IMG/VR virus record: IMGVR_UViG_3300049447_000008
Location: 1 to 43,653 of that record
Strand: one strand, 5' to 3'
DNA from: a virus
Length of the DNA stretch: 43,653 nt
Below, in pieces: positions 1,369 through 39,108 of this stretch. Position 1 is the first letter of the stretch; every line of letters starts with the position of its first letter. The notes beneath the pieces are model-generated. The model was not told the DNA's origin. It saw only the letters and a list, made by a program, of their open reading frames with translations, and searched no databases. Position numbers and translations under genes: made by a program.

Positions 1369-1688
1369 GGAACTTGGGTACTAGAACGACCTAACTCACA
1401 CAATCTAAAGGCTCATTGCTGGTTCCGACCCCATGGGAACCAGCATGGTACTAGCATTCCCATCGGGAACTAGCATTGTCATATAGAGTCCTAAGTTCGA
1501 TATGACTCTAATACTAGTATCAGGTTCCCACCCCTAGTAGGGGGGAACTAGGAACTACCATTCGCGACAGGCTAGCTCATCAGGCAAGCTAGTTTCCCCG
1601 TCAAGAATCGTCAAAATATCGTGTCGTCGGCTGCTGGTTCCGCCGTGAGTAATGCTGGTTCCCGCCCGTGGGAACTAGCAGGAACGGG
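1369..1688. repeat. Dense cluster of GGAAC/CTAG inverted repeats, candidate replication origin
   Basis: This stretch holds about ten copies of GGAAC or GTTCC. Perfect or near-perfect hairpins include TGCTGGTTCC/GGAACCAGCA (1417-1426/1436-1445), TTCCC/GGGAA inside the direct repeat ACTAGCATT (1450-1458, 1469-1477), TAGAGTC/GACTCTA (1484-1490/1504-1510), the palindrome ATACTAGTAT (1511-1520), GTTCCC/GGGAAC (1524-1529/1543-1548), CTAGCT/AGCTAG (1572-1577/1587-1592) and GCTGGTTCCC/GGGAACTAGC (1654-1663/1670-1679). The tetramer CTAG occurs nine times. The block lies between converging genes and enters the 3' end of the primase-helicase gene. An origin with iterons is my favoured reading; a two-way terminator or recombination site are alternatives. 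Confidence 0.55.
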
Positions 1689-3437
1689 CATCGCGCCGCT
1701 ACTCGGGGCCGCCACGACGTAGATAAAGGGGTCGCCTTTGGTGCCCTCGCCCTCGCGGATGATGCGTTGCGCCTTGAGGAGCGTCATTTTCGCGGCGAGC
1801 TTGGCATCGCGCCGGCCTTGCACCCGCGCCAGCCATGCGGCTTCAGTGGGGCGTTCGTTGTGCAGATTCGCTTCTTCTAGCGCCGTGAATAGTTCCTCAA
1901 CGAGTTCTTGGGTGCGATGGAGCGCGACGTCACCCGCGAATCGCAAGAGCCCGCTCGTCTTGTCAAACTGCAAAATCGTGGGCGTGAGCGAGTCGCCAAT
2001 ACGCTGTTCAGTCTGAATCGTGCGATAGGAACCCGTCGCGCCGCCCCGCGCCTTCCGTAGCAGGATGTAGGTGTCGCACGCGCCGCCGAAACTGCCGGCG
2101 CCAGCCAATGCATCAATGGCGTCTTCTTCCGGTCCGCCCTGTTGTCCCTTTCTGGCGTGTGCGAGAAAGAGAAACGCCGTGCCCGTCTCGCGGCTGACTT
2201 CGATGAACGGCTGAAGCGTTAGCGTCACGATCCCGATGTCATTCATCTTCGGAATCTGTAGCGCGAGCTGCATGTGGTCAATGATGACCAGTGTAGGATG
2301 CCGCTCGCGGATTTTCGCGAACATCGCGTCCAGGTGGCCGGGTAGCGGTGATTGCTCTTGCAGCACGATGGGATCATCGCGGTGGACGCCGAGTTGAATG
2401 AAGTGCGCGCGATGGTCCACGAGCCGCCCTTCATACGCCAGATACCAGACTTCGCCCTTCTGGCACGCCATACCGAGCCATTCAGTGCCCTGACCAATGG
2501 CGACGGCGAGCGAGCGCGCGAGCGTCGTCTTGCCGACCTTCGGCTTTGCCACAAGGAAATTGAGTCCGCCGGCCGGGAGTAGTCCATCCACGATCCAGCG
2601 CGGTGGCGTGAGTGTCATATCGAGCACCTCGATGATGAATTGCAATGGGAACGGATCGCGCGGTTTCGCGGCAACAGTGAGCGCGTCAAGGTCAGCGACG
2701 GTATGTCCAAGGTCTAACCAGTCGGAGACATCGCCCTTAGGTGCGACACCTGGGAACGGCGGGAGGACGGTGACGCCGAGTCCTGCCTTACCTGCGCTCG
2801 ATTGCACGACGCCGGCATGTGCCGCGCCTTCCGCGTCGAAGTCTTGGCAGATGACGACCTCAAGCACGCCGGCGGCTTGCACATGCGCGCTGTCGCTGTC
2901 GCGCCATTTCTTGGCGCCGCCGGTGTTACATGTCGCCGGCACACCGAGCGACCAGAGGCGATCCACGTCCTTCTCACCTTCGCAGACGAACACGCGCGAA
3001 TGGCCGGCGAGTTCATGGAGCCGATACGGCAACCGCGCGATGCCGTCCATCTTCCACGACCAGTCACCAGAGCCGTTAGGATGGCGCTGAAGGAACTGCT
3101 TCGGCTTTCCTGCCGCCGTGGTCTTGCGGACGACCTGATAGCGCAGGACGCCCGCTGAATCGCGGTAGTTATAGACGGCCGCGAAGTCATCGCCGTTCTT
3201 TGAGACGGGCGCGCGATCTGGAAGGACATCCGCCCATGTCAGGCCGGCGCCTTTCAGGATGTCAGCGACCGAGCATCCCTTCGTTCGACAGGTGAAGAGG
3301 ACGCCAGTGCGACCATCAGCTATTTCGAGCGACGGATGTCGCGCGTCGTCAGGATGCGCCGGGCAAACCGTGCGGTATTCCTTCCCGTGCTTTTTGGCAG
3401 GCGGGAAGCGCGAGAGCACCTCCGCGAACGACAGCAC
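1611..3437 (-). CDS. Primase-helicase (CHC2 zinc finger, TOPRIM, RecA-like ATPase)
   Basis: A 608-residue replicative protein. Residues 25-55 carry CHC2-type ligands (C25, H28, C50, C55). The TOPRIM domain (about 147-240) has FVCEGEKD (E153) and CQDFDAEG (D199, D201). A RepA/DnaB-like ATPase follows, with Walker A AKPKVGKTT (297-305) and Walker B LVIID (383-387). It would synthesise primers and unwind DNA, like T7 gp4 or other bifunctional primase-helicases. The start is GTG: TAG of the 39-residue ORF, one codon (CCC), then GTG, suggesting translational coupling. The repeat cluster overlaps its last codons. No replicative DNA polymerase is encoded in the window, so the host enzyme is probably used. 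Confidence 0.88.
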   Translation of the reverse strand: MLSFAEVLSRFPPAKKHGKEYRTVCPAHPDDARHPSLEIADGRTGVLFTCRTKGCSVADILKGAGLTWADVLPDRAPVSKNGDDFAAVYNYRDSAGVLRYQVVRKTTAAGKPKQFLQRHPNGSGDWSWKMDGIARLPYRLHELAGHSRVFVCEGEKDVDRLWSLGVPATCNTGGAKKWRDSDSAHVQAAGVLEVVICQDFDAEGAAHAGVVQSSAGKAGLGVTVLPPFPGVAPKGDVSDWLDLGHTVADLDALTVAAKPRDPFPLQFIIEVLDMTLTPPRWIVDGLLPAGGLNFLVAKPKVGKTTLARSLAVAIGQGTEWLGMACQKGEVWYLAYEGRLVDHRAHFIQLGVHRDDPIVLQEQSPLPGHLDAMFAKIRERHPTLVIIDHMQLALQIPKMNDIGIVTLTLQPFIEVSRETGTAFLFLAHARKGQQGGPEEDAIDALAGAGSFGGACDTYILLRKARGGATGSYRTIQTEQRIGDSLTPTILQFDKTSGLLRFAGDVALHRTQELVEELFTALEEANLHNERPTEAAWLARVQGRRDAKLAAKMTLLKAQRIIREGEGTKGDPFIYVVAAPSSGAMPVPASSHGREPALLTAEPAADDTIF

Positions 3438-3440
3438 GGG

Positions 3441-3560
3441 CTAGCTCTCGCGGAACCCGGACCAGAAACTCGTCACGAATTGCGAGAGCGGAATACGGAT
3501 ACTCCAGGGGAACCATTCAAACACGACGATGAGCGAGGACTTGACGCGGGACGCAATCAT
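3441..3560 (-). CDS. 39-residue peptide gene with a consensus Shine-Dalgarno, upstream of primase
   Basis: A short ORF encoding MIASRVKSSLIVVFEWFP and onward to residue 39, ending FRES. It starts at ATG (3558-3560 on the complement) preceded by AAGGAGG (complement of 3567-3573) with 6-nt spacing, the best ribosome-binding site seen in the window. Its TAG is followed 3 nt later by the GTG of the primase gene, so translation of this ORF could load ribosomes onto primase. The peptide is aromatic and hydrophobic (four Phe and three Trp in the central and C-terminal part) and might touch a membrane or a protein partner. Function unknown. Confidence 0.6.
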   Translation of the reverse strand: MIASRVKSSLIVVFEWFPWSIRIPLSQFVTSFWSGFRES

Positions 3561-3572
3561 TGGAGACCTCCT

Positions 3573-3665
3573 TCAAGGCATCAGGGGAAAGCGCCGGGCC
3601 ATCCAACGTGAAGGCGTCAGATGCTTACGGGCGGCGGCCAACCGACAACCCGGCTCAGGTTGCAT
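3573..3665 (-). CDS. Possible 30-residue ORF between VRR-NUC and the 39-residue ORF
   Basis: An ATG one nucleotide after the VRR-NUC stop opens a 30-residue frame (MQPEPGCRLAAARKH...) that ends in TGA overlapping the Shine-Dalgarno of the next gene. The end-to-end packing is suggestive, but the composition (Arg/Pro-rich) is what random GC-rich DNA gives. Alternatively this is an untranslated spacer or a regulatory RNA element before the strong ribosome-binding site. Confidence 0.2.
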   Translation of the reverse strand: MQPEPGCRLAAARKHLTPSRWMARRFPLMP

Positions 3666-3666
3666 A

Positions 3667-3951
3667 TTACTTCGGCTTCGCTGGCGTCACGCTGACAATC
3701 TCGGCGCCGATGGCGTGCAGGGCTTCGATGGGAGTTCTCACGACCGGCCACGGCGCGCCGACCTGCAACGGCTTCAACTTGCCCTTGGCGGTTTTGATCT
3801 CAAGGGGCATCCATCGCCCGCGCCACAACACGAGCACGTCGGGCGACCCGGCGCCGTTGAGATACCAGACCCGCGCGCCGGCGGCTTCGAGCGCGGCGAC
3901 AATCTCCGGCTCGACGGCATCTCTCCGCTTGCCGGCGCCGCCTAATCGCAT
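3667..3951 (-). CDS. VRR-NUC-type PD-(D/E)XK nuclease
   Basis: A compact 94-residue nuclease. The catalytic core is visible as SPDVLVL (D38) ... PLEIKTAKGKL (E51, K53) followed by LKPLQ, the usual arrangement of the small phage VRR-NUC family (PD-ExK, then a helix with Q). These enzymes are structure-specific endonucleases, often Holliday-junction-type in phages. It sits one cistron away from the primase-helicase, consistent with processing replication or recombination intermediates. Its start overlaps the end of the upstream coiled-coil gene by 10 nt. Confidence 0.8.
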   Translation of the reverse strand: MRLGGAGKRRDAVEPEIVAALEAAGARVWYLNGAGSPDVLVLWRGRWMPLEIKTAKGKLKPLQVGAPWPVVRTPIEALHAIGAEIVSVTPAKPK

Positions 3952-6296: not shown

Positions 6297-6836
6297 ATGG
6301 GGAAGGCGCCGAACAATCTTCTGCACATCCAAGGCACCGCGCGCCCGCTGACGAATGCGCAACCGCTGGACGTGTCGGTCGTCGACGGGAACGGCGATCA
6401 CGTCACGAGTTTCGGCGGCATCGGCGGGACGAACTCCAGTTTCGGCGCGGCGTTTCCGACGCCCGGCACGGCGGCGGGGTTCAAGGATTCGACTGGCGTC
6501 AATATGGCGCCGGGCAATCTGGACGCCGCGGGCAATCTCCGCGTCAGTGGCGTCGGAGCCACGGCGGCGGGCACGGCGACGCTCTCGAACATCAGCGCGA
6601 GTGCGAGCTCGGTCACGCTGCTCAGCGCGAACGCCGCACGACTCGGCGCGACGATTCTGAACGATTCAGCGGCGCTGTTGTATGTGAAGTTCGGCACGAC
6701 GGCGAGCGCGTCGAGTCACACGGTGCAACTCGTGACCGGCGCGTATTACGAAGTCCCGGCGAATTACACGGGACGCATTGATGGCATTTGGGCGAGCGCG
6801 ACGGGCTCCGCGCGTGTCACTGAGATGAGCGCCTGA
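6297..6836 (+). CDS. Putative tail fibre or appendage protein
   Basis: 179 residues, ATG at 6297 one base after the previous stop. The sequence is low in charge and rich in Gly, Ala, Ser and Thr (NLLHIQGTARPLTNAQPLDV, AGTATLSNISASASSVTLL), with LDAAGNLRVS and LLYVKFGTTASASS segments typical of beta-rich trimeric fibre parts. No signal peptide, unlike its two neighbours. Its last base is the first base of the tailspike ATG. Probably a structural component of the host-recognition apparatus. Confidence 0.6.
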   Translation: MGKAPNNLLHIQGTARPLTNAQPLDVSVVDGNGDHVTSFGGIGGTNSSFGAAFPTPGTAAGFKDSTGVNMAPGNLDAAGNLRVSGVGATAAGTATLSNISASASSVTLLSANAARLGATILNDSAALLYVKFGTTASASSHTVQLVTGAYYEVPANYTGRIDGIWASATGSARVTEMSA

Positions 6837-9736
6837 TGCCGCTCTATGCGCCGCTACGCATCGGCTCACCGATTGCGAGTGGCGTCATCGGCGCGTTGCT
6901 CTATCCGGATCTGAACGGCTTACTTGCCGACGGCGTGAATGCGCCGAATTGGGACGCCGCAGTCGGCACGTTCGCGGTCCGCGGTCCTCGCCCGTATGTC
7001 GACCTGATGCACCCGTCGTTCAACGTGAGCGGCTCCACCACGACCACGACCGGATCGATTACGAGCGGCACGGCATCGCTTGTCGTGGCCTCCGCGAGCA
7101 CGTTCGTCATCGGGCAGGGGATTTACGTCGTCGGGGCTGGCGCCGCCGGGGCCACGCTCGAAACCGTCATCGATAACATCGTCGGGACGACCGTCACGCT
7201 GCATGTGAATGCGGGCACGACCGTCGTCAGCGCGGCGACGGGGCATTCCGACACAGCAGGCATCACGGCAGCGCTCGCCGTCGGCGCGACAGGGAAAATC
7301 TACGCGCCGGCCGGCACGTATAACATCAGCCAAATCTCCATCCCGACGAATACCTGGCTTGAGGGTGCGGGGCGAGTCGTCAGTGTGTTCAAGGCGATCC
7401 CCGGCGATACGTCCACGGCGGTGATTCTGATCGGCGGAACGACCAAGCGATGCAAGCTCAGTGACCTCGGCGTCGATGGGAATAAATCAGCGACCGGCAC
7501 CACGTGCGCGGGGATCTCCCTGACCTCGTCAGCAGGTGGCGTGCAAGGGCACATCCTCGACAACGTCCGGATTGCTTCCTGCAAATCTGACGGCCTCCTC
7601 CTCGGCGCCAGCATGGTCAGTTGTTCACTAAAACACGTGCAAGCGCTTTCGAATGACGGCCACGGCATCAACGTCACGAACGGCACCAGCGACTGCATGT
7701 TTGAGCACTGTTTCACGAATCTGTCAGGACTGAATGGCTTTCAGGTCTCTGGCGGCGCGAATCACTTCACGAATTGCGGCGCGGATGATAGCGGACAAAT
7801 TGACGCGACGAACTACGGCGATGGCTGGTTGTTCACGGGCGGCACGTTCGCGATTTGCAACACGCTGGCCGGCTGCTGGTCTCAGGATAATTTACGCGAC
7901 GGCGTGCAACTGACCGCGGCGGCTGATTCCAACAACATCGATATCACCATCTCTCGGTGTCATCGCGACGCGATCCGGATTACGTCCGGCACGTCCAATT
8001 ACATTCACGTCGTGGGTTCGAAGGATACTGGGACGCCGATCATGGTCAGCATGGTCAATTGCGTCGGCGGCGCAAGCAATGTTGTTGACCTGATTTATCA
8101 TTCGACCGCGATTGTCGCCGGTAATCCGCCCGTCATCGGCTCCGCCGTCGCGAGCAACGTCATCGGGATTAACGGGCCGCTCTCGATCGGCTCCACGGTC
8201 GGCGGTGGCACGTCTGGCGCGATTCCCTACGTGAGCACGGCCGGCCTCCTCGCGCAGGACCCGACACATCTTGCGTGGGACCCTGTGACGCAACTCCTCA
8301 CGGTGAGCACTGGGCAGATCTACTTCGATAGCTCAAATCAAACCATCTCACTCGGCCCAAACAATCCCGGCAATATCGGCTGGCGTCAAGGGCAAGGGGC
8401 CAGCAGTGGCGCCACCGGCCTCGTCGCCATCGGCGATTCAGCGCTCGGGGTCACGACCACGGGCGTCAACAACATCGCGATCGGCGTCGATGCGCTGGCG
8501 GCGAATACGACCGGCTATCAACAGACGGCGATTGGCGCCAATGCGTTGAAGGCGAACATCGGGGGCGCGTTAAATCTCGCGATTGGCGATTATGCGCTCT
8601 ACTCGAACGTAAGCGGTATCTACAATCTCGCGATCGGGAGTAGCGCGCTCTACTACAACACGAACAATTACAACACGGGGATCGGCGCGCTGGCGTTCGC
8701 GAACACGGTGGGCGGCTATCAAAACGTGGGCGTCGGCTTTGGCGCAGGCTACGGCAATGTCTCGGGCGTGTTCAATACCGCCGTAGGTGTCCAGGCGCTG
8801 TATGCGGGCGGCGACGCGAACGGACAGAATACGGCCGTCGGTGGCAACGCATTGACGGCGGCGACGGGCTATTTCAATACGGCCATCGGCGCGGCGGCGG
8901 CGTTGTCGTTACAAGACGGGCACGACAACACGATTATCGGGTGGGTCGCGGGCGTCAGCCTCGTCCACGGTTCCGGCAATATTCTCATTGGGAGCTTGAG
9001 TGGCGGCGTGGACGTGCCGGCCGCGACGACGAGCAATTTCCTCAACATTGGCGGGACGCTCTTCGGGAATCTCGGCGCAGGCAGTATCGGCGTCGGCGTG
9101 CAAGCGCCGACCGCGTCGTTGCATATCTGGGCTGGCAACACGGGCGTCAATTCTGCACCTTTGAAGTTCGATAACGGCGCGCCGATGACGACGGCGGAAG
9201 CGGGCGCCGTCGAATATAACGGCACGCATCGCGTGACGAACGCCTCCCTCTTGCGCTATCCGATCGGCGGCGTGCTCTTCGATCACTTCGCGGATGCGAA
9301 CAACGGCACGACAGTCGAAACCGACCTCTACGCGGATACGCTCATCGCGTCGACGTTCGCGACCAACGGCGACAAGCTCGAAGCGCAGTATGGCGGGTCA
9401 TTTGTGGGCGATGTCACATCGACGCAGCGATTGCGCGCCTACTTTGGCGGCACGTTGATTTTCGATTCCGGCGCGCTCGGGATCGGCGTGACCACCGCGT
9501 ATTGGAATATGCTCGTGACGTGCGTGCGTGAATCGTCGAGCATCGTCCGATGCACCGTCTCGCTCACGACGTCATTCGCCACACTCAACGCCTACGCCGC
9601 GTATACGAAAGTGACGGGTCTCACGTTGACGAACACGCAAGTGCTCAAGATTACGGGCCAGTCGGCCGGCGCGTCGGGCGCCTCGAATCAGATCACGGCC
9701 CGTGAAGGCTATGTCGAATTTAAGCCGGCGGCATGA
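6836..9736 (+). CDS. Tailspike: beta-helix plus YadA-like AIG repeats
   Basis: A 966-residue appendage. After an N-terminal attachment region, residues about 140-430 form a parallel beta-helix of the pectate-lyase/tailspike type (YAPAGTYNISQISIPTNTWL at its start, N- and C-rich rungs). Residues about 530-725 hold roughly twelve 15-18-residue repeats of the AIGxxAL form (IAIGVDALAANTTG, TAIGANALKANIGG, LAIGDYALYSNVSG), like the left-handed beta-roll of YadA-type adhesin heads. The C-terminal 220 residues look like a beta-sandwich cap. Role: receptor binding and possibly polysaccharide cleavage by the helix part; no catalytic residues can be assigned by eye. Confidence 0.82.
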   Translation: MPLYAPLRIGSPIASGVIGALLYPDLNGLLADGVNAPNWDAAVGTFAVRGPRPYVDLMHPSFNVSGSTTTTTGSITSGTASLVVASASTFVIGQGIYVVGAGAAGATLETVIDNIVGTTVTLHVNAGTTVVSAATGHSDTAGITAALAVGATGKIYAPAGTYNISQISIPTNTWLEGAGRVVSVFKAIPGDTSTAVILIGGTTKRCKLSDLGVDGNKSATGTTCAGISLTSSAGGVQGHILDNVRIASCKSDGLLLGASMVSCSLKHVQALSNDGHGINVTNGTSDCMFEHCFTNLSGLNGFQVSGGANHFTNCGADDSGQIDATNYGDGWLFTGGTFAICNTLAGCWSQDNLRDGVQLTAAADSNNIDITISRCHRDAIRITSGTSNYIHVVGSKDTGTPIMVSMVNCVGGASNVVDLIYHSTAIVAGNPPVIGSAVASNVIGINGPLSIGSTVGGGTSGAIPYVSTAGLLAQDPTHLAWDPVTQLLTVSTGQIYFDSSNQTISLGPNNPGNIGWRQGQGASSGATGLVAIGDSALGVTTTGVNNIAIGVDALAANTTGYQQTAIGANALKANIGGALNLAIGDYALYSNVSGIYNLAIGSSALYYNTNNYNTGIGALAFANTVGGYQNVGVGFGAGYGNVSGVFNTAVGVQALYAGGDANGQNTAVGGNALTAATGYFNTAIGAAAALSLQDGHDNTIIGWVAGVSLVHGSGNILIGSLSGGVDVPAATTSNFLNIGGTLFGNLGAGSIGVGVQAPTASLHIWAGNTGVNSAPLKFDNGAPMTTAEAGAVEYNGTHRVTNASLLRYPIGGVLFDHFADANNGTTVETDLYADTLIASTFATNGDKLEAQYGGSFVGDVTSTQRLRAYFGGTLIFDSGALGIGVTTAYWNMLVTCVRESSSIVRCTVSLTTSFATLNAYAAYTKVTGLTLTNTQVLKITGQSAGASGASNQITAREGYVEFKPAA

Positions 9737-9960
9737 CGCTCACTTATCGACTATCGGACGCGAACTGGCAGCGCATGGTGACGGCCATCGTGGCGGTCAA
9801 TACGCGCGGCGGGAGCTTGCAGGGTCTCGCGCCGGCGGAGTTCGCCAAGGCGTGGATCATCAACCAAGCGATCGGTCTCACGCGACAATTCGAGCAGAGC
9901 GAAGCCGCGAAAGCCGCCGTGAGCGGGCTGCCGGCTCCGGTCGACATTCCCATCACGTAA
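9733..9960 (+). CDS. Hypothetical protein downstream of tailspike
   Basis: 75 residues (MTLTYRLSDANWQRMVTAIV...). The ATG overlaps the tailspike TGA by 4 nt. The content is helical with a hydrophobic face and an apolar C-terminus (LPAPVDIPIT). It could be a small structural or assembly factor for the spike. No recognisable motif. Confidence 0.6.
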   Translation: MTLTYRLSDANWQRMVTAIVAVNTRGGSLQGLAPAEFAKAWIINQAIGLTRQFEQSEAAKAAVSGLPAPVDIPIT

Positions 9961-9976
9961 GCTAGGGAGAGACACT

Positions 9977-10189
9977 ATGACGCCTGCTGACGCCCGCGCC
10001 TACGCCGACGAACTCACCGAACGCATCGCGGCCTACGGCGTGTCGGTGCCGCATCCGGAAGCCGCGCGCATGCAGAAAGCCGCGGACGTGATTCGCGACC
10101 TCGCGACGCAACTCGAACAAGCGTCACCGACGACGATGCGCGACCTCGCGACACAGGTGAACCGCCTCACGCCGGAGCCGCCCGCGTGA
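9977..10189 (+). CDS. Hypothetical helical protein
   Basis: 70 residues (MTPADARAYADELTERIAAY...), acidic and helical, with a repeated RDLATQ element (twice, C-terminal half). GGGAGAG precedes the ATG at 9977 with good spacing. It lies two genes before the large terminase, where a small terminase subunit is often found, but it is short and shows no helix-turn-helix that I can defend. Confidence 0.55.
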   Translation: MTPADARAYADELTERIAAYGVSVPHPEAARMQKAADVIRDLATQLEQASPTTMRDLATQVNRLTPEPPA

Positions 10190-10398
10190 CGCTGGCGCTG
10201 TTCTGGGAGCGGCCGTTGACGCGCGTCAAGGCATGGGCGCGACGCGAACGCGCGCTGGCGTTGGCGCGTGCTGATGGCTATGCGCGCGGGAAGCGTGCCG
10301 GCTATGACGACGGCGTCAAGGACGGCTATCGGCAGGGCTACACCATCGGCTTCGAGACGTGCAAGCACACGATCAGCGAGCTATGCGCGAAACAATAG
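10186..10398 (+). CDS. Hypothetical basic helical protein
   Basis: 70 residues from a GTG that overlaps the previous stop (GTGA). Basic N-terminus (LTRVKAWARRERALALARAD), then glycine/tyrosine-rich turns (GYARGKRAGYDDGVKDGYRQ) in which G-Y pairs recur every 8-11 residues. That spacing resembles amphipathic EF-like or GYxxG repeats, but no known family is recognised. Its 3' end overlaps the terminase start at 10383. Confidence 0.55.
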   Translation: MTLALFWERPLTRVKAWARRERALALARADGYARGKRAGYDDGVKDGYRQGYTIGFETCKHTISELCAKQ

Positions 10399-11963
10399 CG
10401 CAACCCTGGCGACCGGACCCGCGCTGCTGCTGGTGTCAGAAGCGCTTCGTCGAGGTGACGGTCACAGACGTGACGGTGTGGGTGTGTCCGTCGGCGAAGT
10501 GCTTTGCGCGGTGCGCGAAGTGGGCGCAGTTCGAAATCATCACCGTCGAGAAAACAGACGACAAGCCGGCGCATCAGGCGCCCGGTCCGCTCGCGTATCT
10601 GCCGCTGCCGAAGCAGGCGATGATTTACGAGGCGATTGAGACCGGCACGTATCGGAAAATCCACTGGGGCGGCGCGGTCGCCGGAGCCAAATCATTTGGC
10701 CTCCGCTGGCTCGCGTATCACTTCTGCCGGCGCTTCGAGCACTTCCGTGTGCTGCTCTTGCGCCGGACGTTCAGTGAACTCGAAGCCGACCATCTGGATT
10801 TTGCCGAACGCGAAGTCGGCGCGATTGGCGGCAAGCTGTCACGTCATCGCGTGACGTTCCCGGCGACTGGCGCCCAACTCGTGTTCGGCCACTGCGCGAA
10901 TCCGAACGACTACGCGGCGTATCGGTCGTCTCAGTGGGATCTCATCCTGTTCGATCAGCTTGAGACGTTCATCGAAAAACAGTTCCGTGAAATCGGCGCT
11001 CGGACGGGCCGTATTCGGCGTATCGGGTGGCGCGGCCTCGTGCTGTCAGCGGACAATCCCGGCGGACCGCTCGCGAAGTTCATCGACGAACTGTTTATTT
11101 CGAAGAACCCAGACCGCGCGAAGTTTCCCGCGTATGACCCCGCGGAGCATCTCTTCATCCCGGCGTCGTTGTCGGATAACCCCTACGTCGATTCCGGTTA
11201 TGCCGATTTTTTGATGGACCTCGACCCTGATACGCGGGAGATGTATCTGCACGGCCGGCGCGATATCTTCCCGCGGCAGTTCTTTCCGAGCTTCAAGGCG
11301 GCGACGCACGTCGCACCAATGACGGAACCCGCGGTGAAGTGGTTCCGGTCGCTGCGCTGGGGCTATCATGATGCGGGCGCCGTGCTCTGGTGGGCGGTGC
11401 TGGCGGATGGCCGGCTGCACGTGCGCGCGATGCTGCCCTTAGAGAAACTGGACGAAGCCGACGCGGCGCGCCAGATGCGCGCGGTCGATGCGTCGCTCGG
11501 CATCCGCGCAATCGCCTACACGGTCGCGAACGCGGAGGTGTTTCATGCGACGACGCCGCGTCTCTCGTCGGGGTTTGTCGGCGCGTCCATCGCGGACACG
11601 CTGTCGAGCGCCGGCATCAGCCTTACGCGCGGTGACGATGATTGTGCAAATGGGTGGCAGCGTCTACGTAGCGTCTGGCGGCCACGGGTATCTGATCGTC
11701 GGCCGTGGCTCACGGTCGATGGCGGCTGTCCTGCGCTGGTGGCTGCAGTCCAGCACGCACTGAGCGACGAGACGCATCCGGACGACCTCGACTTGCAACA
11801 ACCATCGGCGCTGCTGGACGCGCTGCGGCTCGGCGTGATGAGTCGACCGGCGCCTGATGCGGTGACGACGCCGGTGGTCTATCCGGTCGGGTCGCCGGGT
11901 TACTACATGCAGCAGGATCGGCGCGAAGGACAGCGGAGTATGTTCGGGAAACGGATCGCCTGA
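10383..11963 (+). CDS. terL: Terminase large subunit with N-terminal zinc ribbon
   Basis: 526 residues from ATG 10383, inside the end of the previous gene; an in-frame GTG at 10359 is less likely. Residues 15-44 carry C15, C16, C18, C35, C40 and C44, a zinc-ribbon-like addition. The packaging ATPase shows Walker A GGAVAGAKS (about 96-104) and Walker B DLILFDQ (186-192). The nuclease half contains WGYHDAGAVLWWAV, the first acidic strand of the RNase H-like fold. Two motif positions deviate: Ala replaces the Gly before the P-loop Lys, and Gln192 replaces the usual catalytic Glu. Role: ATP-driven packaging and cutting of concatemeric DNA into the portal. Confidence 0.88.
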   Translation: MRETIAQPWRPDPRCCWCQKRFVEVTVTDVTVWVCPSAKCFARCAKWAQFEIITVEKTDDKPAHQAPGPLAYLPLPKQAMIYEAIETGTYRKIHWGGAVAGAKSFGLRWLAYHFCRRFEHFRVLLLRRTFSELEADHLDFAEREVGAIGGKLSRHRVTFPATGAQLVFGHCANPNDYAAYRSSQWDLILFDQLETFIEKQFREIGARTGRIRRIGWRGLVLSADNPGGPLAKFIDELFISKNPDRAKFPAYDPAEHLFIPASLSDNPYVDSGYADFLMDLDPDTREMYLHGRRDIFPRQFFPSFKAATHVAPMTEPAVKWFRSLRWGYHDAGAVLWWAVLADGRLHVRAMLPLEKLDEADAARQMRAVDASLGIRAIAYTVANAEVFHATTPRLSSGFVGASIADTLSSAGISLTRGDDDCANGWQRLRSVWRPRVSDRRPWLTVDGGCPALVAAVQHALSDETHPDDLDLQQPSALLDALRLGVMSRPAPDAVTTPVVYPVGSPGYYMQQDRREGQRSMFGKRIA

Positions 11964-13999
11964 TGGCTATGCCGACACGCGAACCGACGCCGCTCACGTC
12001 TGACCAGGTGCGCGAATGGTGGGCGCGCATCGATTTGGACAGGCAGAAGCGGAAGAAAGAATCACAGCGCTGGCGGCGGCTACTCGCGGCCTATCTGCCG
12101 CCGACCGGCGCGAGCATCACCGACCTCAGTTCCAATATCCACTTCCGCAACACGCAACTGAAGATTGCGGAAATCTGGGCACAGTTGCCGGAGCTGCATC
12201 TGACCGCGCTCGAACCGTTGCAGGGCGTGCGCGATCCGCAGACGGGTCAACCGATGGAACCCGCGACGCTGGCGGCCATCAAAAAGGCCGTGCTCGGGAA
12301 ACTGCTCGGCCGCGATCATGCGGATGTGGATGCCACGGTCCGCGCCGCGCTGTTCGACGTGTTCGCAACCTCCGGCATCGGCTGGACGAAAATCTGTTAC
12401 GAAGTCGACACGCAACCGATTGAGCAACAGGTGCCGGGTCCGCCGGTCGCGCAACCGGGTGCCGTGCTCGGCTTGCAGACGATGCCGGGTCCGATGGTGA
12501 CGCAGATGGTGCCGGTGCCCGTGTGCGAACGCTGGCGCTGGTATAAGTTCAGCGCCGAGAAAGCGATTCTGCCGTATGACTTCACGTCGACGGACTTCGA
12601 CGAAGCGCCGTATCTCGGGATGGAGTTCGTCGAGCCGTTCACGCCGCAAGCGGCGGAGAAGTATCGGCTGCCACAAGATTTCCAGCCGAACGAATCACGC
12701 GATGACATGCTCCTGACGGCAGACCGCGACGCGATGCCGTCGAGCAAGACGATGATTAAGGGCGTGGAACTCTGGCTGCACGCCTCGCGCTACGATCCGG
12801 CGGTCGCGCACGCGCAGGTGTTTTACCGGCTCGTGCTCATCGAAGGCATGCGCGATCAAGCGGCGATTTACGAGCAGTCGCCGTATCAGACCATCGGGCC
12901 GGATGGCCGTTTGACGCCGGATTCAATGATCGGGAGCCCGATTCATCCGGTCGTCTTGCGCACGGTGTCGGACATGGCCTACGTGCCGTCCGATTCCGCG
13001 TTCACCGATCCGCTCGTCTCGCTTGAAAATCTCTGGACGAAGCAGGACGTGCTCCTACGGGAATCAAACATCGCGCGCTTTTTCCATTCAGACGCGATTT
13101 CTGTCGCGGTCGACCAACTGAAAGATGCCGACGTGGGGCAAGGCGTGGCGATTCCGGCCGGCGAGATGGCCAAAGGGATCGGCGCGCTGATGATTCCGTT
13201 GCCGCATCTCGAGCACGCGCAATCGGACAGCGCCGGCCGGCAGGAGATTCAGCGCGCGTTGCAAGAGACGCTCGGCCTCGGCGCGAATCAGGCGGGCACG
13301 TATAGCTCCACGACGCGCAGCGCGACCGAAGTCGCGACGATTCAGCAGAACGTCAGCGTGCGGCTGAAGTCTGAACAGAACATCGCGCTCAGTTGGTTTC
13401 TCAAGGGCGTGCGGAAGTTCGATGCGCTGGCGCAGCGCTATCTGACGGAGCGGGGCTATGTGGAACTGGTCGGCCCGGACGGCGTGCGGGCGCTCGTGGC
13501 GTTCACGCAGGCGCATCTCTCCGGCCGCTACGCTTACGATGCGCATCCCGACTCCCAGTTGTCGATGGACCAATCGACGCGGATCAAGCGCGCGATCGAT
13601 TACATCAACTTCCTGGCGAAGTCGCCGTTCCTGAACCAAAAAGGCGCCGCGGAACTCATCACGTCAGAGTTCGGGTATGACCCGTCGCGGCTGATTGCGG
13701 ACCCGCAACCGCCGCCATCGGAGAAGCCGAATATCTCGTTTCGGTTCTCGGGGCCGGATCTGGCGATTCCCGAAGTGCGAGCAATTCTGCAAGCGGCGGG
13801 TATTCCGGTGCAGCCGGCGCCGTCACCTGAAGCCATCATGGCGCATCAACTGGAAGCCGCGAAGGCGCTGCCGCATGGCGGAACGGCGGAGCGGGCCGAT
13901 ACGCTGTCGAAACATCACGCGGCCGAGACGGACCAGCAGCCCGGGCGGCCGACGGCGGTCGGCCCGGTGCCAGCGGCGCCCGCGCCGCGCGTGCAATGA
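11963..13999 (+). CDS. Portal protein
   Basis: 678 residues, ATG overlapping the terminase stop. The size and the features SATEVATIQQ and ALSWFLKGVRKFDALAQRY, with a long helical wing and a Pro/Ala-rich C-terminal tail, match the large portal proteins of podovirus-type phages (P22 gp1 class). Twelve copies would form the ring through which DNA enters and leaves. Position directly after the terminase and before scaffold and capsid supports the call. Confidence 0.83.
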   Translation: MAMPTREPTPLTSDQVREWWARIDLDRQKRKKESQRWRRLLAAYLPPTGASITDLSSNIHFRNTQLKIAEIWAQLPELHLTALEPLQGVRDPQTGQPMEPATLAAIKKAVLGKLLGRDHADVDATVRAALFDVFATSGIGWTKICYEVDTQPIEQQVPGPPVAQPGAVLGLQTMPGPMVTQMVPVPVCERWRWYKFSAEKAILPYDFTSTDFDEAPYLGMEFVEPFTPQAAEKYRLPQDFQPNESRDDMLLTADRDAMPSSKTMIKGVELWLHASRYDPAVAHAQVFYRLVLIEGMRDQAAIYEQSPYQTIGPDGRLTPDSMIGSPIHPVVLRTVSDMAYVPSDSAFTDPLVSLENLWTKQDVLLRESNIARFFHSDAISVAVDQLKDADVGQGVAIPAGEMAKGIGALMIPLPHLEHAQSDSAGRQEIQRALQETLGLGANQAGTYSSTTRSATEVATIQQNVSVRLKSEQNIALSWFLKGVRKFDALAQRYLTERGYVELVGPDGVRALVAFTQAHLSGRYAYDAHPDSQLSMDQSTRIKRAIDYINFLAKSPFLNQKGAAELITSEFGYDPSRLIADPQPPPSEKPNISFRFSGPDLAIPEVRAILQAAGIPVQPAPSPEAIMAHQLEAAKALPHGGTAERADTLSKHHAAETDQQPGRPTAVGPVPAAPAPRVQ

Positions 14000-16985: not shown

Positions 16986-18002
16986 ATGTTCAAGTGGCTC
17001 ACACAGTTCACGCAGAGCCCCGATGGGTATCTGTGGACGGCCATCAATTCAGGCCAGAACGTCGCCTTCGCGTGGGAAGCCTACGTGGGGCTCGATCCCG
17101 TCGACAACATTTTCCAGCGGCACTGGCTCCTGGAGCAACTGCGCAGCAATGGCAGTTTCGAGAAGCAAAACGGCACAGTCATTCGACACAACCTCGAATA
17201 CGCGCTGAACCCGAACGTGAAGTGGATGTCGGAAATGGAGACCGTGACGGTCTTCCGGCCCGACACGTTCGACAACGCGGAGTATTCGTGGAAGTTCATC
17301 GGCGGCGATGTGCCGATGACCGACTTCGAGCGCGACATCTCGGCGGGCGGCGCCGGCAAGTTCGATGTCGAAGCGAAGAAGCTCGACAACCTGAAGAACA
17401 CGATGGAAGAGCGGTTGAATACGTCGATGTTCTCGGACGGGACCGGCACGTCCTCGAAGGAAGCGGGCGGCTTGCAGTTGCTCGTGTCGACGACGCCGAC
17501 GACCGGCACGGTCGGTCTGATTCCGCGCGCGACGTATTCGTTCTGGCGCAATCAGGCGACGACGGCGACGAAGACCTCGACGCCCGGTGACAATCTGCTC
17601 GCCGCGATGACGAGCATCTACAACTTGTGCAGCAACGGCATCGGGAAAGAGAACCCGACCTTCGGCGTGTCCGATCAGGCGTCGTTTCAGATTTACGAAG
17701 GCCTGACGCCGTCGATCGAGCGGCTGGTCCGCGACAACGAATCGAACAAGCTGGTGCGTGGGTTCAAGGGCCAGAACATCGCGTTCAAGGACATCATGCT
17801 GGGCTATGACACGGCGTGCCCGGCCGGCTCGATGTATATCCTCAACAACCGCAACCTGCATCTCGTCTACATGGCCTGGATGAAAGGCGAAGCGGCCATC
17901 CGACCGAGTGACGGGTTCTGGGACGTGTTCAAAGTGAGAAGCACGTGCAACTTGACGACGGACAATTCGCGGCGTCTCGGGGTCATTTCCGCGATCACGT
18001 AA
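16986..18002 (+). CDS. Major capsid protein
   Basis: 338 residues. Size, mixed alpha/beta composition and features such as an early helix (WLTQFTQSPDGYLWTAINSG), a long middle beta region and an end rich in Asp/Asn/Arg turns (CNLTTDNSRRLGV) suit an HK97-fold coat protein. It follows the scaffold and precedes a decoration-like protein, as in most tailed phages. I cannot place it in a named subfamily by eye. Confidence 0.8.
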   Translation: MFKWLTQFTQSPDGYLWTAINSGQNVAFAWEAYVGLDPVDNIFQRHWLLEQLRSNGSFEKQNGTVIRHNLEYALNPNVKWMSEMETVTVFRPDTFDNAEYSWKFIGGDVPMTDFERDISAGGAGKFDVEAKKLDNLKNTMEERLNTSMFSDGTGTSSKEAGGLQLLVSTTPTTGTVGLIPRATYSFWRNQATTATKTSTPGDNLLAAMTSIYNLCSNGIGKENPTFGVSDQASFQIYEGLTPSIERLVRDNESNKLVRGFKGQNIAFKDIMLGYDTACPAGSMYILNNRNLHLVYMAWMKGEAAIRPSDGFWDVFKVRSTCNLTTDNSRRLGVISAIT

Positions 18003-18036: not shown

Positions 18037-18780
18037 ATGAATCTTTCGAATCGTGACGTGCAGTTGGCTCAGGCGATGTTCGAATCGTCGGCCACGCAGA
18101 AGCACAAACTCGGGACGCGCGGTTACACCGAAGACGGCCGCGCCTATCGCTATGTCAAAGCGGGCGTGGCGGATCTCGTCGCCGGGTCAGTCGTGCAGAG
18201 CCCGTCGTTCGTCGCGGGTCACGCGGCGAACGCGGTCAGCACGACCTCGCCGGTCCTCGCGGGGTCCACGTCGGTCGATGTCACGTGCGCATCGAGCGCG
18301 GCGGCGAATCAATACGCCGAAGGCTACCTGTGCGTCGCCACGGGCGTCGGCATGGGCTACCTCTACACCATCGACAAGCACGCGGCGGTGTCGACGGGCG
18401 CGGTGGGTAAGTTCTTTCTGCACGCCGAAGAGTCGTTGCAGGTGACGATCACGACCTCGGCGACGGTGACGTTACTGCTGAACAAATACGCGGGCGTCCT
18501 GCTCTCGCCGGCCAATACGGCACTCGGGATCATCGTGGGCGTGGCGACCTACATCATCACGGCCGCGCAGTATGGGTGGGTGCAGACGTGGGGGCCGGCG
18601 CTGGTGTTCTGTGGCGGGGGCGGGACGTTGGGCGCGCCGCTGCTCGGGACGGCGACCTCTGGCGGGCGCGTGAGTCTGGTCACGGCCGCGACGTTGCTCA
18701 CACAGCGGATCATCGGCTTCGCCGCACAAACGATGGTCGAGGCCCAGTATGTGGTGATCGATTTGACCATTTCACCCTAG
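18037..18780 (+). CDS. Structural protein, capsid decoration candidate
   Basis: 247 residues, with AAGGAG (18021-18026) 10 nt before the ATG. The N-terminal 50 residues are charged; the rest is Ala/Gly/Thr/Val-rich beta sequence without long helices (AGSTSVDVTCASSAAANQYA, VTITTSATVTLLL). It follows the coat gene at 34 nt, the usual place of decoration or head-completion proteins. Alternative: a tail-tube-like protein. Confidence 0.6.
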   Translation: MNLSNRDVQLAQAMFESSATQKHKLGTRGYTEDGRAYRYVKAGVADLVAGSVVQSPSFVAGHAANAVSTTSPVLAGSTSVDVTCASSAAANQYAEGYLCVATGVGMGYLYTIDKHAAVSTGAVGKFFLHAEESLQVTITTSATVTLLLNKYAGVLLSPANTALGIIVGVATYIITAAQYGWVQTWGPALVFCGGGGTLGAPLLGTATSGGRVSLVTAATLLTQRIIGFAAQTMVEAQYVVIDLTISP

Positions 18781-18808
18781 GCATTCGCTCATCACCCCGG
18801 TGGCGAAT

Positions 18809-18852
18809 CGGGTCGGCTCGAAGGTGCTGGGACGTAGCTTCGAGCCGATTCG
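18809..18852 (+). other. Long hairpin between decoration and glycosyltransferase genes
   Basis: CGGCTCGAAG (18814-18823) and CTTCGAGCCG (18838-18847) pair perfectly; five more pairs (two G-U) extend the stem to 15 bp, around a 14-nt loop. No T-tract follows, so it is not a classical terminator. It lies 8 nt before AAGGAG (18860-18865) of the next gene and could protect, process or attenuate the transcript, setting GT41 expression below that of the capsid. Confidence 0.6.
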
Positions 18853-18870
18853 TGTTCACAAGGAGCGTGC

Positions 18871-20301
18871 GTGCAGGCCGCGTCACCCGTCGTCGTCGAT
18901 CTCTACGGCCTCGCGAATGAGCGCGCCGAGTGGGCGCACGTCGAAGGCCGCGTCTCGGATCTGCTCCCGTCGACATGGGACGCGGCGACCCGCGCGCACG
19001 CGATGGGCGATGCCGCGCTGCAACTTGGACAAATCGATCAGGCGATTCGCTACTACCGCGAAACGCTGCGACTGAATCCGCAGGACATCGGTGCGCACGA
19101 AAATCTCATCTTTCTGACCGATGCGCAGCCGGAGACCACCGCGCACGAGGCGGCGGCAGAGCGATTGCGCTGGTGGCATCAGTTCGGGCGGGCGCGATTC
19201 GAGGCGCGCACGCCGCACGTCAACGTCCGCGACCCAGAGAAGCGGTTGCGCGTCGGCTACGTGTCAGGCGATTTCCGGTTTCATTCGGCCGCGTTCACCT
19301 GTCATCACGTGATTCGTCAGCACACGGCACAGATCGAGCCGGTCTTCTATTCGACGCTGCCGCCGGCGCACTACGACGACGTGACGCGCGTGCAGTGGGT
19401 GGACTGCCCGGGGTTTGTGGATGTCTCCGCGCACAACGCGGCCGAAGTCGCGCGCATCATCCAGTCCGACGAAATTGATATCCTGGTGGACCTCTCGGGT
19501 TACACGGCGGGCAATCGGCTGTTGTCGTTCACGCATCAGCCGGCCCCGATTCAGGGCACGGCCTGGGGCTATGCGACGGGCGTCGGCTGGCCGGCGATGC
19601 AGTTCCTCTTCGGTGACGCCACGACGATGGCCGGCTATGACGGACCCGAGCGCGTCGTGCATCTACCGAGTGTCATCAGTTTCAATCCGCGGCCGAACCT
19701 GCCCGAGGCGGGGCCGCTGCCCTGCCTGACCGGTCCGCCGATGTTTGCGGTCTTTCAGCGCGCGATGAAACTCAACCCGGACGTGCTCGCGACGTTCGGG
19801 GAGATTCTGGCGCGCGTGCCCGATGCGCATCTCGTGTTCAAGGCGGCCGATTATTCGTCGCTGGCGCGCACGATGATTGCGGACTGCCTGCCGAACGCCC
19901 GCCATCAGATCGAGTTCCTGCCGTCGACCTCGCAGGCGCATCATCAGGCGTTCTATCAGCAGATGGATCTGTCGCTCGACCCGTGGCCACAGACGGGCGG
20001 GATTTCGACGCTCGAAGCGTTCTGGATGGGCGTGCCGACCGTGACGCTGCTCGGCTCGCGCGTGATTCAGCGGTCGAGCGGCGCGTTCTTGCGGCTGCTC
20101 GGCTGCGATGACTTCGTGACCGAGACCCGCGAAGATTACATCACGCGCGCGGTCGCGCTGGTGACGACGGACCGCGCGCGACTGGCCGCCGTGCGCGCAT
20201 CGGCCCGCGCGACGTTGGCCGCGTCACCGATTCTCGTCGGCTACGTCGAGGCCGTCGAAGCCGCGTATCGCACACTCTGGCGTGACTACTGCGCCATGTA
20301 A
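18871..20301 (+). CDS. GT41 family O-GlcNAc-transferase-like glycosyltransferase
   Basis: 476 residues from GTG, 5 nt after AAGGAG. One tetratricopeptide repeat (about 43-76) is followed by a two-lobed GT-B enzyme of the OGT/SPINDLY class: RVGYVSGDFRFHSAAF (127-142, with H138), DILVDLSGYTAGNRLLSF (203-220), APIQGTAWGYATGVGWPA, FAVFQRAMKLNP (292-303, K300), then DPWPQTGGISTLEAFWMG (370-387) for UDP-sugar binding. H138 and K300 line up by eye with catalytic His and Lys of OGT. Bacterial family members have many TPRs; one is few. Predicted role: transfer of GlcNAc or another sugar to Ser/Thr of a virion or host protein. A phage GT41 enzyme inside the head genes is unusual. Confidence 0.85.
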   Translation: MQAASPVVVDLYGLANERAEWAHVEGRVSDLLPSTWDAATRAHAMGDAALQLGQIDQAIRYYRETLRLNPQDIGAHENLIFLTDAQPETTAHEAAAERLRWWHQFGRARFEARTPHVNVRDPEKRLRVGYVSGDFRFHSAAFTCHHVIRQHTAQIEPVFYSTLPPAHYDDVTRVQWVDCPGFVDVSAHNAAEVARIIQSDEIDILVDLSGYTAGNRLLSFTHQPAPIQGTAWGYATGVGWPAMQFLFGDATTMAGYDGPERVVHLPSVISFNPRPNLPEAGPLPCLTGPPMFAVFQRAMKLNPDVLATFGEILARVPDAHLVFKAADYSSLARTMIADCLPNARHQIEFLPSTSQAHHQAFYQQMDLSLDPWPQTGGISTLEAFWMGVPTVTLLGSRVIQRSSGAFLRLLGCDDFVTETREDYITRAVALVTTDRARLAAVRASARATLAASPILVGYVEAVEAAYRTLWRDYCAM

Positions 20302-20316
20302 CGAACAAGGACACCT

Positions 20317-20931
20317 ATGCCGACCGAGAAGACCGCCACGCTCAGCCTCGAAGAACGACAACTCGCGAACGAAGAACGGCAACTCGCCATTCAAGAGCGC
20401 CAGATTGCGCTGCAAGAAGAGGCGCTGAAGGTTTCACGGGCACACGAGAAACTGGCGCGCAAGAAGTCGCTCGACTATCCGCCGATGATTTCGCCGTTCA
20501 ATCCGCGCGGGGAGAAAGACTTCCCGATGCCGGACCTGAAGTGCGAGATCCATGCGCCGTGGTCCATGAAACCAGGCTTGCACGGGAACGACCGCGAGGA
20601 AGTCGAGCTATTCAATCTGCTCGAACCGGGCGAGTATCAGGTGGAGTTGCTCGATCAGACGACCGTGACACTCTGTGTCCTCGCGGAGAAAAACGCCGTG
20701 ACCGGGAAGCTTGAGCACATGGCGCTGATGGGCGCCTACGATCCTGGCGAGAAGCAGCACGCGGCGTTTTTCACGCAGGACAGGAAGCAGATTGTCCCGC
20801 CGATGCGCCATCTCCTGCGGCAGATGCTCGGCGAGAAAGCGGCGCATGTGCTGCCGATGAAAGAGGAGCTGCGGCGGATTGCGCTGCCACCGGACCATCC
20901 GCAACATCTGCCCGTCTCGGTGGGTGAATGA
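20317..20931 (+). CDS. Structural protein with N-terminal coiled coil
   Basis: 204 residues. Residues 8-50 form a Gln/Glu/Arg coiled coil with the repeat EERQLA and ERQIAL, then a globular part follows (SPFNPRGEKDFPMPDLKCEI; EVELFNLLEPGEYQVELLDQ). AAGGA precedes the start. It is coupled by an ATGA overlap to the connector-like gene. Likely a head or head-tail junction protein of unknown family. Confidence 0.6.
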   Translation: MPTEKTATLSLEERQLANEERQLAIQERQIALQEEALKVSRAHEKLARKKSLDYPPMISPFNPRGEKDFPMPDLKCEIHAPWSMKPGLHGNDREEVELFNLLEPGEYQVELLDQTTVTLCVLAEKNAVTGKLEHMALMGAYDPGEKQHAAFFTQDRKQIVPPMRHLLRQMLGEKAAHVLPMKEELRRIALPPDHPQHLPVSVGE

Positions 20932-21926
20932 ATCTCACGGCGCTGCTCGCTGATTGCTATACGCGGCTCCGCGAGCCGCCGAGTCCGGCCGCGACGACGG
21001 TCGCGCGGCTCACGTCCTTCGTCAACGAAGTCCAGCGCGAACTCCTGGCCGATCCGGACATCGCGCGGTTGCGGGATGATGTGCTGCCGGTGACGGCCTA
21101 CGCGAACCGGGCGCGGTCGGGCCTGCCGCCGTCCGTCGCGCGGATCAACAAGCTCGTCGACCGTGCGAACAATCTCCCACTGAAGCAAGTGCCGCTGAGC
21201 GACTTGCGACTGACCGATCCCGGTCAAACATACACGGGCGGGTATCCGCTGCGCTACAGCGTCATCGGCCAGCAGGCGGTCGCCGCGCAGCCGACGACGG
21301 TCGGATCGGGGCTCTGGGTGGTCAGTTCGTCGGCGACCGATGTCGGACGCAAAGCCTACTTGGAAACGCAGGTGCTCGGCGGCTATCCGAATCAAACGCT
21401 GACGGCGGGCACGACACTCAACGGCACGACGCGCGTGGCCGTCGGGACGCGCACGGATCACGTGCTGGTCGAAAAGTTCTATCTCGACTTGGCGGCGCCG
21501 GCCGGGTCGACGGCCGCGGCTGGGTTCATCAGCCTGTATGATGCCGCGGTCTCCGGCACCGAACTCGCGCGCATTCCGTTGCCGAACACGTTCTCGCGGT
21601 ATCTCGCGGTCGAATGGTGGCCGATTCCAACGGTCGACGTGATCGAGACGGCAGATGTCACGCGGACGATTTTCGACCTCGTCAACGGCACGGATGAACC
21701 GCTCCTGCCGCCAGATTTCCATTACGTGCTCCTGGCCGGCGTGCGGATGAAGGCGTATGAAGTGCTGGACGATAACCGCGTGGCGCGTGCCCGGGCGGAT
21801 TACGAAGTCGGCAAATCGGCGCTGCGGTCGTGGGTGCTGACGAACGGCGACCGGATTGCGTCCTTGCGGCCGACGCGCGTCCGCTGGAACAATCTCGGCT
21901 ACATGTATCCGATGGACCGCTCCTGA
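20928..21926 (+). CDS. Head-tail connector or adaptor-like protein
   Basis: 332 residues. N-terminal helices (LTALLADCYTRL, LTSFVNEVQRELLAD) begin as in podovirus adaptor proteins, a beta-rich insertion follows, and the last 80 residues are helical (FHYVLLAGVRMKAYEVLDDN, ARADYEVGKSALRSWV). Head-proximal adaptor proteins show this pattern of short helical N-terminus and helical C-terminus. It probably joins the portal to the tail nozzle encoded downstream. Confidence 0.62.
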   Translation: MNLTALLADCYTRLREPPSPAATTVARLTSFVNEVQRELLADPDIARLRDDVLPVTAYANRARSGLPPSVARINKLVDRANNLPLKQVPLSDLRLTDPGQTYTGGYPLRYSVIGQQAVAAQPTTVGSGLWVVSSSATDVGRKAYLETQVLGGYPNQTLTAGTTLNGTTRVAVGTRTDHVLVEKFYLDLAAPAGSTAAAGFISLYDAAVSGTELARIPLPNTFSRYLAVEWWPIPTVDVIETADVTRTIFDLVNGTDEPLLPPDFHYVLLAGVRMKAYEVLDDNRVARARADYEVGKSALRSWVLTNGDRIASLRPTRVRWNNLGYMYPMDRS

Positions 21927-38884: not shown

Positions 38885-39108
38885 GTAACGACCTCCACCC
38901 GGCGACGGCTGATGACCTCGCTGACAGTCGGGTAAGGCGCGTGTTCGCCGAGCGCGGGAGCATCGGCCTATCTTTCATCATCGGCCGCGCGCACTGCGAG
39001 CCGTGCGGCACCGTGGCGGCCGTCATCCGGCATCCGGACGTGTGCGAGGTGCACTGTCCGCGCTGCGGCGAACTGGCGACGATCGGAGCGAGCGGCGATG
39101 AGTGCTGA
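38881..39108 (+). CDS. Zinc-ribbon protein preceding the helicase-methyltransferase
   Basis: 75 residues. CEPCG and CPRCG (with C of VCEVHC between) form a zinc ribbon at the C-terminal half. Its end overlaps the next gene by 11 nt. Possible adaptor of the large fusion enzyme next to it, by neighbourhood only. Confidence 0.58.
   Translation: MSNDLHPATADDLADSRVRRVFAERGSIGLSFIIGRAHCEPCGTVAAVIRHPDVCEVHCPRCGELATIGASGDEC

Follow-up and report, generated by a model that had tools for sequence, protein, structure and literature searches.

A GT41 glycosyltransferase gene in the head-gene block of an uncultured phage, with the phage's own head proteins as likely acceptors

The closest described relatives of the enzyme in this report are the plant protein O-fucosyltransferase SPINDLY and the O-GlcNAc transferase OGT. 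Mutants of SPINDLY in His495 or Lys665 are inactive, the effect of His495 being possibly structural according to the authors (PMC9715652, PMC10027727), and the residue that separates the two enzymes is Cys917 in OGT and Tyr744 in SPINDLY (PMC9715652). In Caulobacter, FlmG, which combines TPRs with a GT-B domain, glycosylates flagellins in the cytosol before their export (PMC7591256). Phages are also known to encode enzymes for glycosylating their own particles; mycobacteriophage capsids and tail tubes are glycosylated by the phage enzymes Che8 gp110 and Corndog gp38 (as cited in PMC12619734, PMC12363180). A GT41 enzyme in that role appears to be new. We found no report of a phage GT41 in the open literature, none in PHROGs, no match in 50,697 phage genome records searched by tblastn with three queries, and no GT41-like fold in BFVD (best TMq of 0.51, at ~10% identity). 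If their genomes are included in those records, Che8 gp110 and Corndog gp38 are not recognizable GT41s, because the tblastn search came back empty.

The window, i.e., the whole stretch of DNA analyzed here, is a virus record of 43,653 bases. Its plus strand carries, in order, genes for terminase, a probable portal, a scaffold-like protein, capsid, decoration, GT41, p204, and adaptor (Table 1), and the place claimed for the GT41 gene in an earlier note on this DNA, between decoration and connector genes, is the one found, with the decoration gene on its 5' side and p204 and the SU10-type adaptor on its 3' side. Elsewhere, the window encodes a DEAD/SNF2-like helicase fused with an N6/N4 DNA methylase (39098 to 41356); a 966-aa tail-spike-like protein, 5' of the terminase gene (6836 to 9736); and, as the chief gene of the opposite strand, a primase-helicase-like protein with AAA_25 and a weak DnaG zinc ribbon (1611 to 3437, minus strand).

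Table 1. Positions in the window of the head-gene block and of features of the GT41 gene
Feature	Position	Strand	Details and basis
Terminase large subunit	10359..11963	+	phrog_979, 2.2e-14
Probable portal protein	11963..13999	+	Position after terminase; same-place homologues in relatives; no library match
Major capsid protein, SU10-type	16986..18002	+	phrog_9953, 1.2e-35
Decoration/virion structural protein, candidate acceptor	18037..18780	+	phrog_29386, 2.9e-7
Strong hairpin in decoration-GT41 gap	18781..18870	+	-44.5 kcal/mol, z = -4.6
Ribosome-binding site AAGGAG	18860..18865	+	5 nt 5' of the GT41 GTG; read from sequence
GT41 glycosyltransferase gene	18871..20301	+	476 aa, GTG start; ORF list, Pfam PF13844, Foldseek SPINDLY
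TPR and capping helices, GT41 residues ~42-111	18994..19203	+	Pfam TPR_2 and model helices
H138 codon (SPINDLY His495 equivalent), S139 (Ser496) next	19282..19284	+	Alignment; invariant in 16 phage proteins
K300 codon, equivalent of essential SPINDLY Lys665	19768..19770	+	Alignment; role from PMC9715652, PMC10027727
Donor loop D370PWPQTGGISTLE382	19978..20016	+	Alignment with SPINDLY
p204, conserved head-block protein	20317..20931	+	Synteny in relatives
Head-tail adaptor	20928..21926	+	PF24175 SU10_adaptor, 3.6e-6

The hairpin that had been claimed to precede the GT41 gene is real. Its region has no T-run and no match to a sigma-70 promoter, and since a T-run is missing it is not a classical terminator; it may instead reduce how much transcription of the strongly expressed structural genes reads through. 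Hairpins of other sequence occupy the equivalent gap in the related contigs L142 and L143, and L047 and L048 are almost gapless before GT41.

The gene had been described in the earlier note as coding for a GT41-like enzyme with one TPR, to be checked by structure prediction and a GT41 profile search, and both of these place the protein inside GT41. Its match to Glyco_transf_41 has an E value of 2.1e-31 and a score of 109.3 bits, for a Pfam cut-off of 25 bits. Pfam recognizes one TPR (TPR_2, residues 43 to 72), and the model has a second helical hairpin in the N-terminal part (helices 38 to 51, 55 to 68, 73 to 85, and 91 to 111). A sequence search of the PDB returned SPINDLY (1.9e-49), Thermobaculum OGT (1e-47), and Xanthomonas OGT (1e-21). 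The AlphaFold2 model, calculated from an alignment of 16 sequences, has a pLDDT of 86 and a pTM of 0.86, with only residues 1 to 30 poorly modeled. Foldseek ranks SPINDLY first for this model (TMq of 0.84 to 0.88), followed by the Thermobaculum, Xanthomonas, and animal OGTs; the top matches are all GT41, and the fold is GT-B like that of OGT and SPINDLY. The ORF is a full-length, intact GT41 protein, chance being excluded, and its nearest characterized relative is SPINDLY, not OGT.

Pattern scans with single sequences found no GT41 relatives, but scans with alignments did, giving 61 viral loci, or 49 after dereplication. We placed these in a maximum-likelihood tree of 113 proteins, a quick tree with SH-aLRT values and no bootstrap from which human and Xanthomonas OGT were left out. 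All but one of the 49 viral rows form a single clade with 14 cellular rows (SH-aLRT 100), apart from SPINDLY and the Thermobaculum OGT, and 37 viral rows cluster within that clade (SH-aLRT 91). A recognized capsid gene lies at most two genes away from at least 22 of the 49 phage GT41s, any recognized head gene is within three genes of 26, and about 20 are outside any recognizable head block, counts that are descriptive because the contigs are mostly fragments. The linked capsid proteins belong to four families unrelated in sequence: phrog_9953, the family of the window group; phrog_10, in the order portal, S78 protease, GT41, capsid, with L154 as a further case; phrog_283, in the order capsid, decoration-like, GT41; and PF19821, in the order GT41, capsid. 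In L155 and L177, GT41 lies near a capsid gene of a fifth family, phrog_1005. Enrichment of Ser/Thr in the products of all genes neighboring GT41 was not significant (p = 0.18); for the upstream neighbor only, p was 0.0014 in a test picked post hoc.

Of the bacterial rows in the clade, two (L065 and L073) lie directly next to flagellin genes. Like capsid proteins, flagellins are abundant, assemble by themselves, and are synthesized in the cytosol, which would make a change from one substrate to the other plausible. Three further loci, L066, L068, and L069 from Desulfobacterota, encode very long proteins, of at least 2,900 to 3,800 aa, with at least four tandem GT41 domains.

Because the linkage to capsid genes recurs in unrelated phages and bacterial relatives are flagellin-linked, virion proteins of the same phage, proposed earlier as the target, are supported as the probable substrate; as would be expected of a virion-glycosylation enzyme, the window GT41 is encoded with virion genes. 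The best explanation, to which we give a probability of about two in three, is a cytosolic O-glycosyltransferase acting on the phage's own head proteins. The neighboring flagellin genes of the bacterial clade members would also suit an enzyme that modifies a host protein (a surface protein such as flagellin or pilin, or a regulatory one) and thereby blocks superinfection or alters host behavior, as would two temperate-looking carriers, L049 and L159, with integrase and methyltransferase genes nearby. However, both in the window lineage and in four or more other capsid contexts, the gene has its place among the late head genes instead of in an early or moron region, and a lytic phage would gain little from altering the flagella of a cell that it has already infected; we consider a host target unlikely.

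The residues named in the earlier note, H138, K300, and D370-P-W-P-Q-T-G-G377, are all where it had put them, and a check of the alignment for loss of H138 or K300 showed both to be kept, opposite SPINDLY His495 and Lys665. Ser496, Lys665, Lys689, and Glu752 of SPINDLY likewise have conserved equivalents in S139, K300, K324, and E382, and H138, S139, A140, R297, K300, and K324 are identical in all aligned phage GT41s. A methionine at the lysine position in PDB 5djs was considered as a natural loss and rejected, as it is the engineered K341M. The window enzyme is presumed to be active. Four SPINDLY residues are substituted, Tyr744 by Gln374, Thr747 by Gly377, Thr748 by Ile378, and Asn662 by Arg297. 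Among 17 phage members, position 374 is Gln or His in 16, position 378 is Val or Ile in 16, and positions 377 and 297 are Gly and Arg, respectively, in all 17. The donor pocket thus has neither the OGT-type Cys917 nor the SPINDLY-type fucose and ribose contacts Tyr744, Thr747, and Thr748, while it does have the SPINDLY set of Lys665, Lys689, and Glu752. With the residues near the sugar and ribose matching neither OGT nor SPINDLY, the donor cannot be inferred from either.

Of the earlier label, O-GlcNAc-transferase-like, the family membership stands and the O-GlcNAc sugar is unsupported, SPINDLY being the nearest structure and Gln374 standing in for Cys917. A true O-GlcNAc transferase would be in keeping with membership in GT41 and would use UDP-GlcNAc, which, as far as we know, is common to all bacteria. 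This is quite improbable, however, since the nearest structures are SPINDLY and the Thermobaculum OGT, the selectivity residue is Gln374 as opposed to Cys917 in human OGT, Lys324 corresponds to the guanine-contacting Lys689 of SPINDLY, and bacterial "OGT" homologues without the Cys had little or no O-GlcNAc activity (PMC9715652). Glycosylation of asparagine, as by HMW1C/NGT, would agree with the place of NGT in GT41 and with a weak NCBIfam NGTferase match of 18.6 bits, but that score is far from the cut-off of 1000 bits and both sequence and fold searches prefer SPINDLY and OGT, making N-linkage very improbable. DNA glycosylation was set aside: GT41 enzymes are protein-directed, and the protein has a TPR.

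Five other contigs have GT41 in the identical slot (L142, L143, L144, L188, and L189; 48 to 67% identity), with GT41 between the decoration gene and p204 and/or the adaptor, as in the window, and when contigs were scanned for the decoration gene, every one with GT41 had it immediately after that gene. In closer relatives without GT41, few or no small genes separate the decoration gene from p204, which is followed by the adaptor. GT41 is absent from 43 viral loci, mostly fragments, whose capsid gene is related, and from most phages that share the decoration gene; this lack in most relatives of the window phage is a point against a head-protein role. Comparison of the window GT41 with that of L142 gave a dN of 0.28 and a dS of 1.21, i.e., purifying selection, and the gene is a lineage-specific insertion that has been retained. 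The absence from most capsid relatives would suit recent capture from a host, an artifact of the contig, or a non-catalytic structural protein, yet with an equal slot in five more contigs, purifying selection, and catalytic residues kept, this is scarcely credible, the shared synteny and selection already contradicting recent capture and a chimeric contig and bearing out the earlier judgment that accidental host acquisition was less likely.

The decoration gene is duplicated in two of six GT41 carriers compared to two of about 48 other contigs, numbers too small for a conclusion; the tandem pairs are at L144:1-1255 and L188:6327-7857. A long decoration protein of 569 aa in L189 proved to be a gene-calling error. 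We found no Ser/Thr excess in the decoration or capsid proteins of GT41-positive phages over those of GT41-negative relatives, which, like the p of 0.18 for the neighboring genes and the GT41s outside recognizable head blocks, weighs against head proteins as acceptors.

Many larger carriers have long repeat proteins of 24 to 31% Ser plus Thr adjoining or near GT41. These candidate acceptors include L056:702-4964, L057:738-5978, L061:6630-8945, L160:4820-7693, and nine more loci, and in L061 the repeat protein lies between two diverged GT41 genes (1908 to 3743 and 8955 to 10742). An HldE-like nucleotidyltransferase is encoded in 15 of 43 GT41 contigs and in none of 29 capsid-related controls, which were unmatched for size and lineage, and all of these HldE-like matches are below the cut-offs of the curated HldE models. 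Several of these carriers also have an HldE domain I-like kinase, two TPP-enzyme halves, and a radical SAM/SPASM protein; kinase, nucleotidyltransferase, TPP, and radical SAM genes occur in L050, L055, L059, L061, L165, and others. Perhaps, to judge from these matches, the gene set of the larger phages makes an unusual nucleotide sugar. The window has none of the HldE-like, TPP-enzyme, or radical SAM genes; for this reason, and with the controls unmatched, a heptose donor was rejected for the window enzyme and is a lead for the large phages only.

Tentatively, and with somewhat less than even confidence, we suggest that the GT41s of uncultured phages make up a distinct viral family whose task is to O-glycosylate capsid, decoration, or Ser/Thr-rich appendage proteins. 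On this reading the family, akin to the bacterial flagellin-linked enzymes, was acquired more than once, next to capsid genes that are not related to each other, and in larger phages the phage's own HldE-like kinase and nucleotidyltransferase, the two TPP-enzyme halves, and the radical SAM protein would supply it with an unusual nucleotide sugar.

For the window phage, an enzyme acting on its own head proteins would be a soluble, cytosolic GT41 with a shortened TPR arm, probably expressed alongside the head genes late in infection. It would place a single sugar on Ser/Thr of those proteins before or during particle assembly, with the decoration protein as the first candidate acceptor and the capsid protein as the second. 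The mechanism would be as in SPINDLY and OGT, with the nucleotide sugar in the C-terminal lobe, K300 at the pyrophosphate, and H138 and S139 at the acceptor; substrate choice, limited to one or a few proteins, may lie with the short TPR arm. The phage would presumably benefit from the glycosylation. If this is true, GT41 not only regulates eukaryotic proteins via single sugars but also serves viruses, repeatedly, for the decoration of capsids; an unexplored branch is added to the family; and a soluble enzyme with its acceptor becomes a simple system for asking why phages glycosylate their particles. The Ser/Thr-rich repeat proteins and sugar-nucleotide genes point to a larger virion-glycosylation system that is absent from phage annotation.

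Among known systems, SPINDLY (GT41; PDB 7y4i, 8dtf) is similar in fold, with a TM of 0.84 to 0.88 over ~457 residues at 26 to 28% identity, and its His495, Ser496, Lys665, Lys689, and Glu752 all have equivalents in the phage enzyme. It differs in its long TPR superhelix, compared to about one TPR in the phage protein, and in Tyr744, Thr747, Thr748, and Asn662, which contact fucose, ribose, and pyrophosphate and are Gln, Gly, Ile, and Arg in the phage. The human and Xanthomonas OGTs share GT41 membership, TPRs followed by GT-B, and the catalytic His and Lys, but are weaker matches than SPINDLY, and Cys917 of human OGT is Gln in the phage enzyme. FlmG of Caulobacter, likened here by its description, is also a soluble, cytosolic TPR plus GT-B enzyme that acts on a self-assembling structural protein (PMC7591256), although it is bacterial and its donor is pseudaminic acid. 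With Che8 gp110 and Corndog gp38, the shared feature is phage-encoded glycosylation of virion proteins, there the capsid and tail tube (as cited in PMC12363180, PMC12619734).
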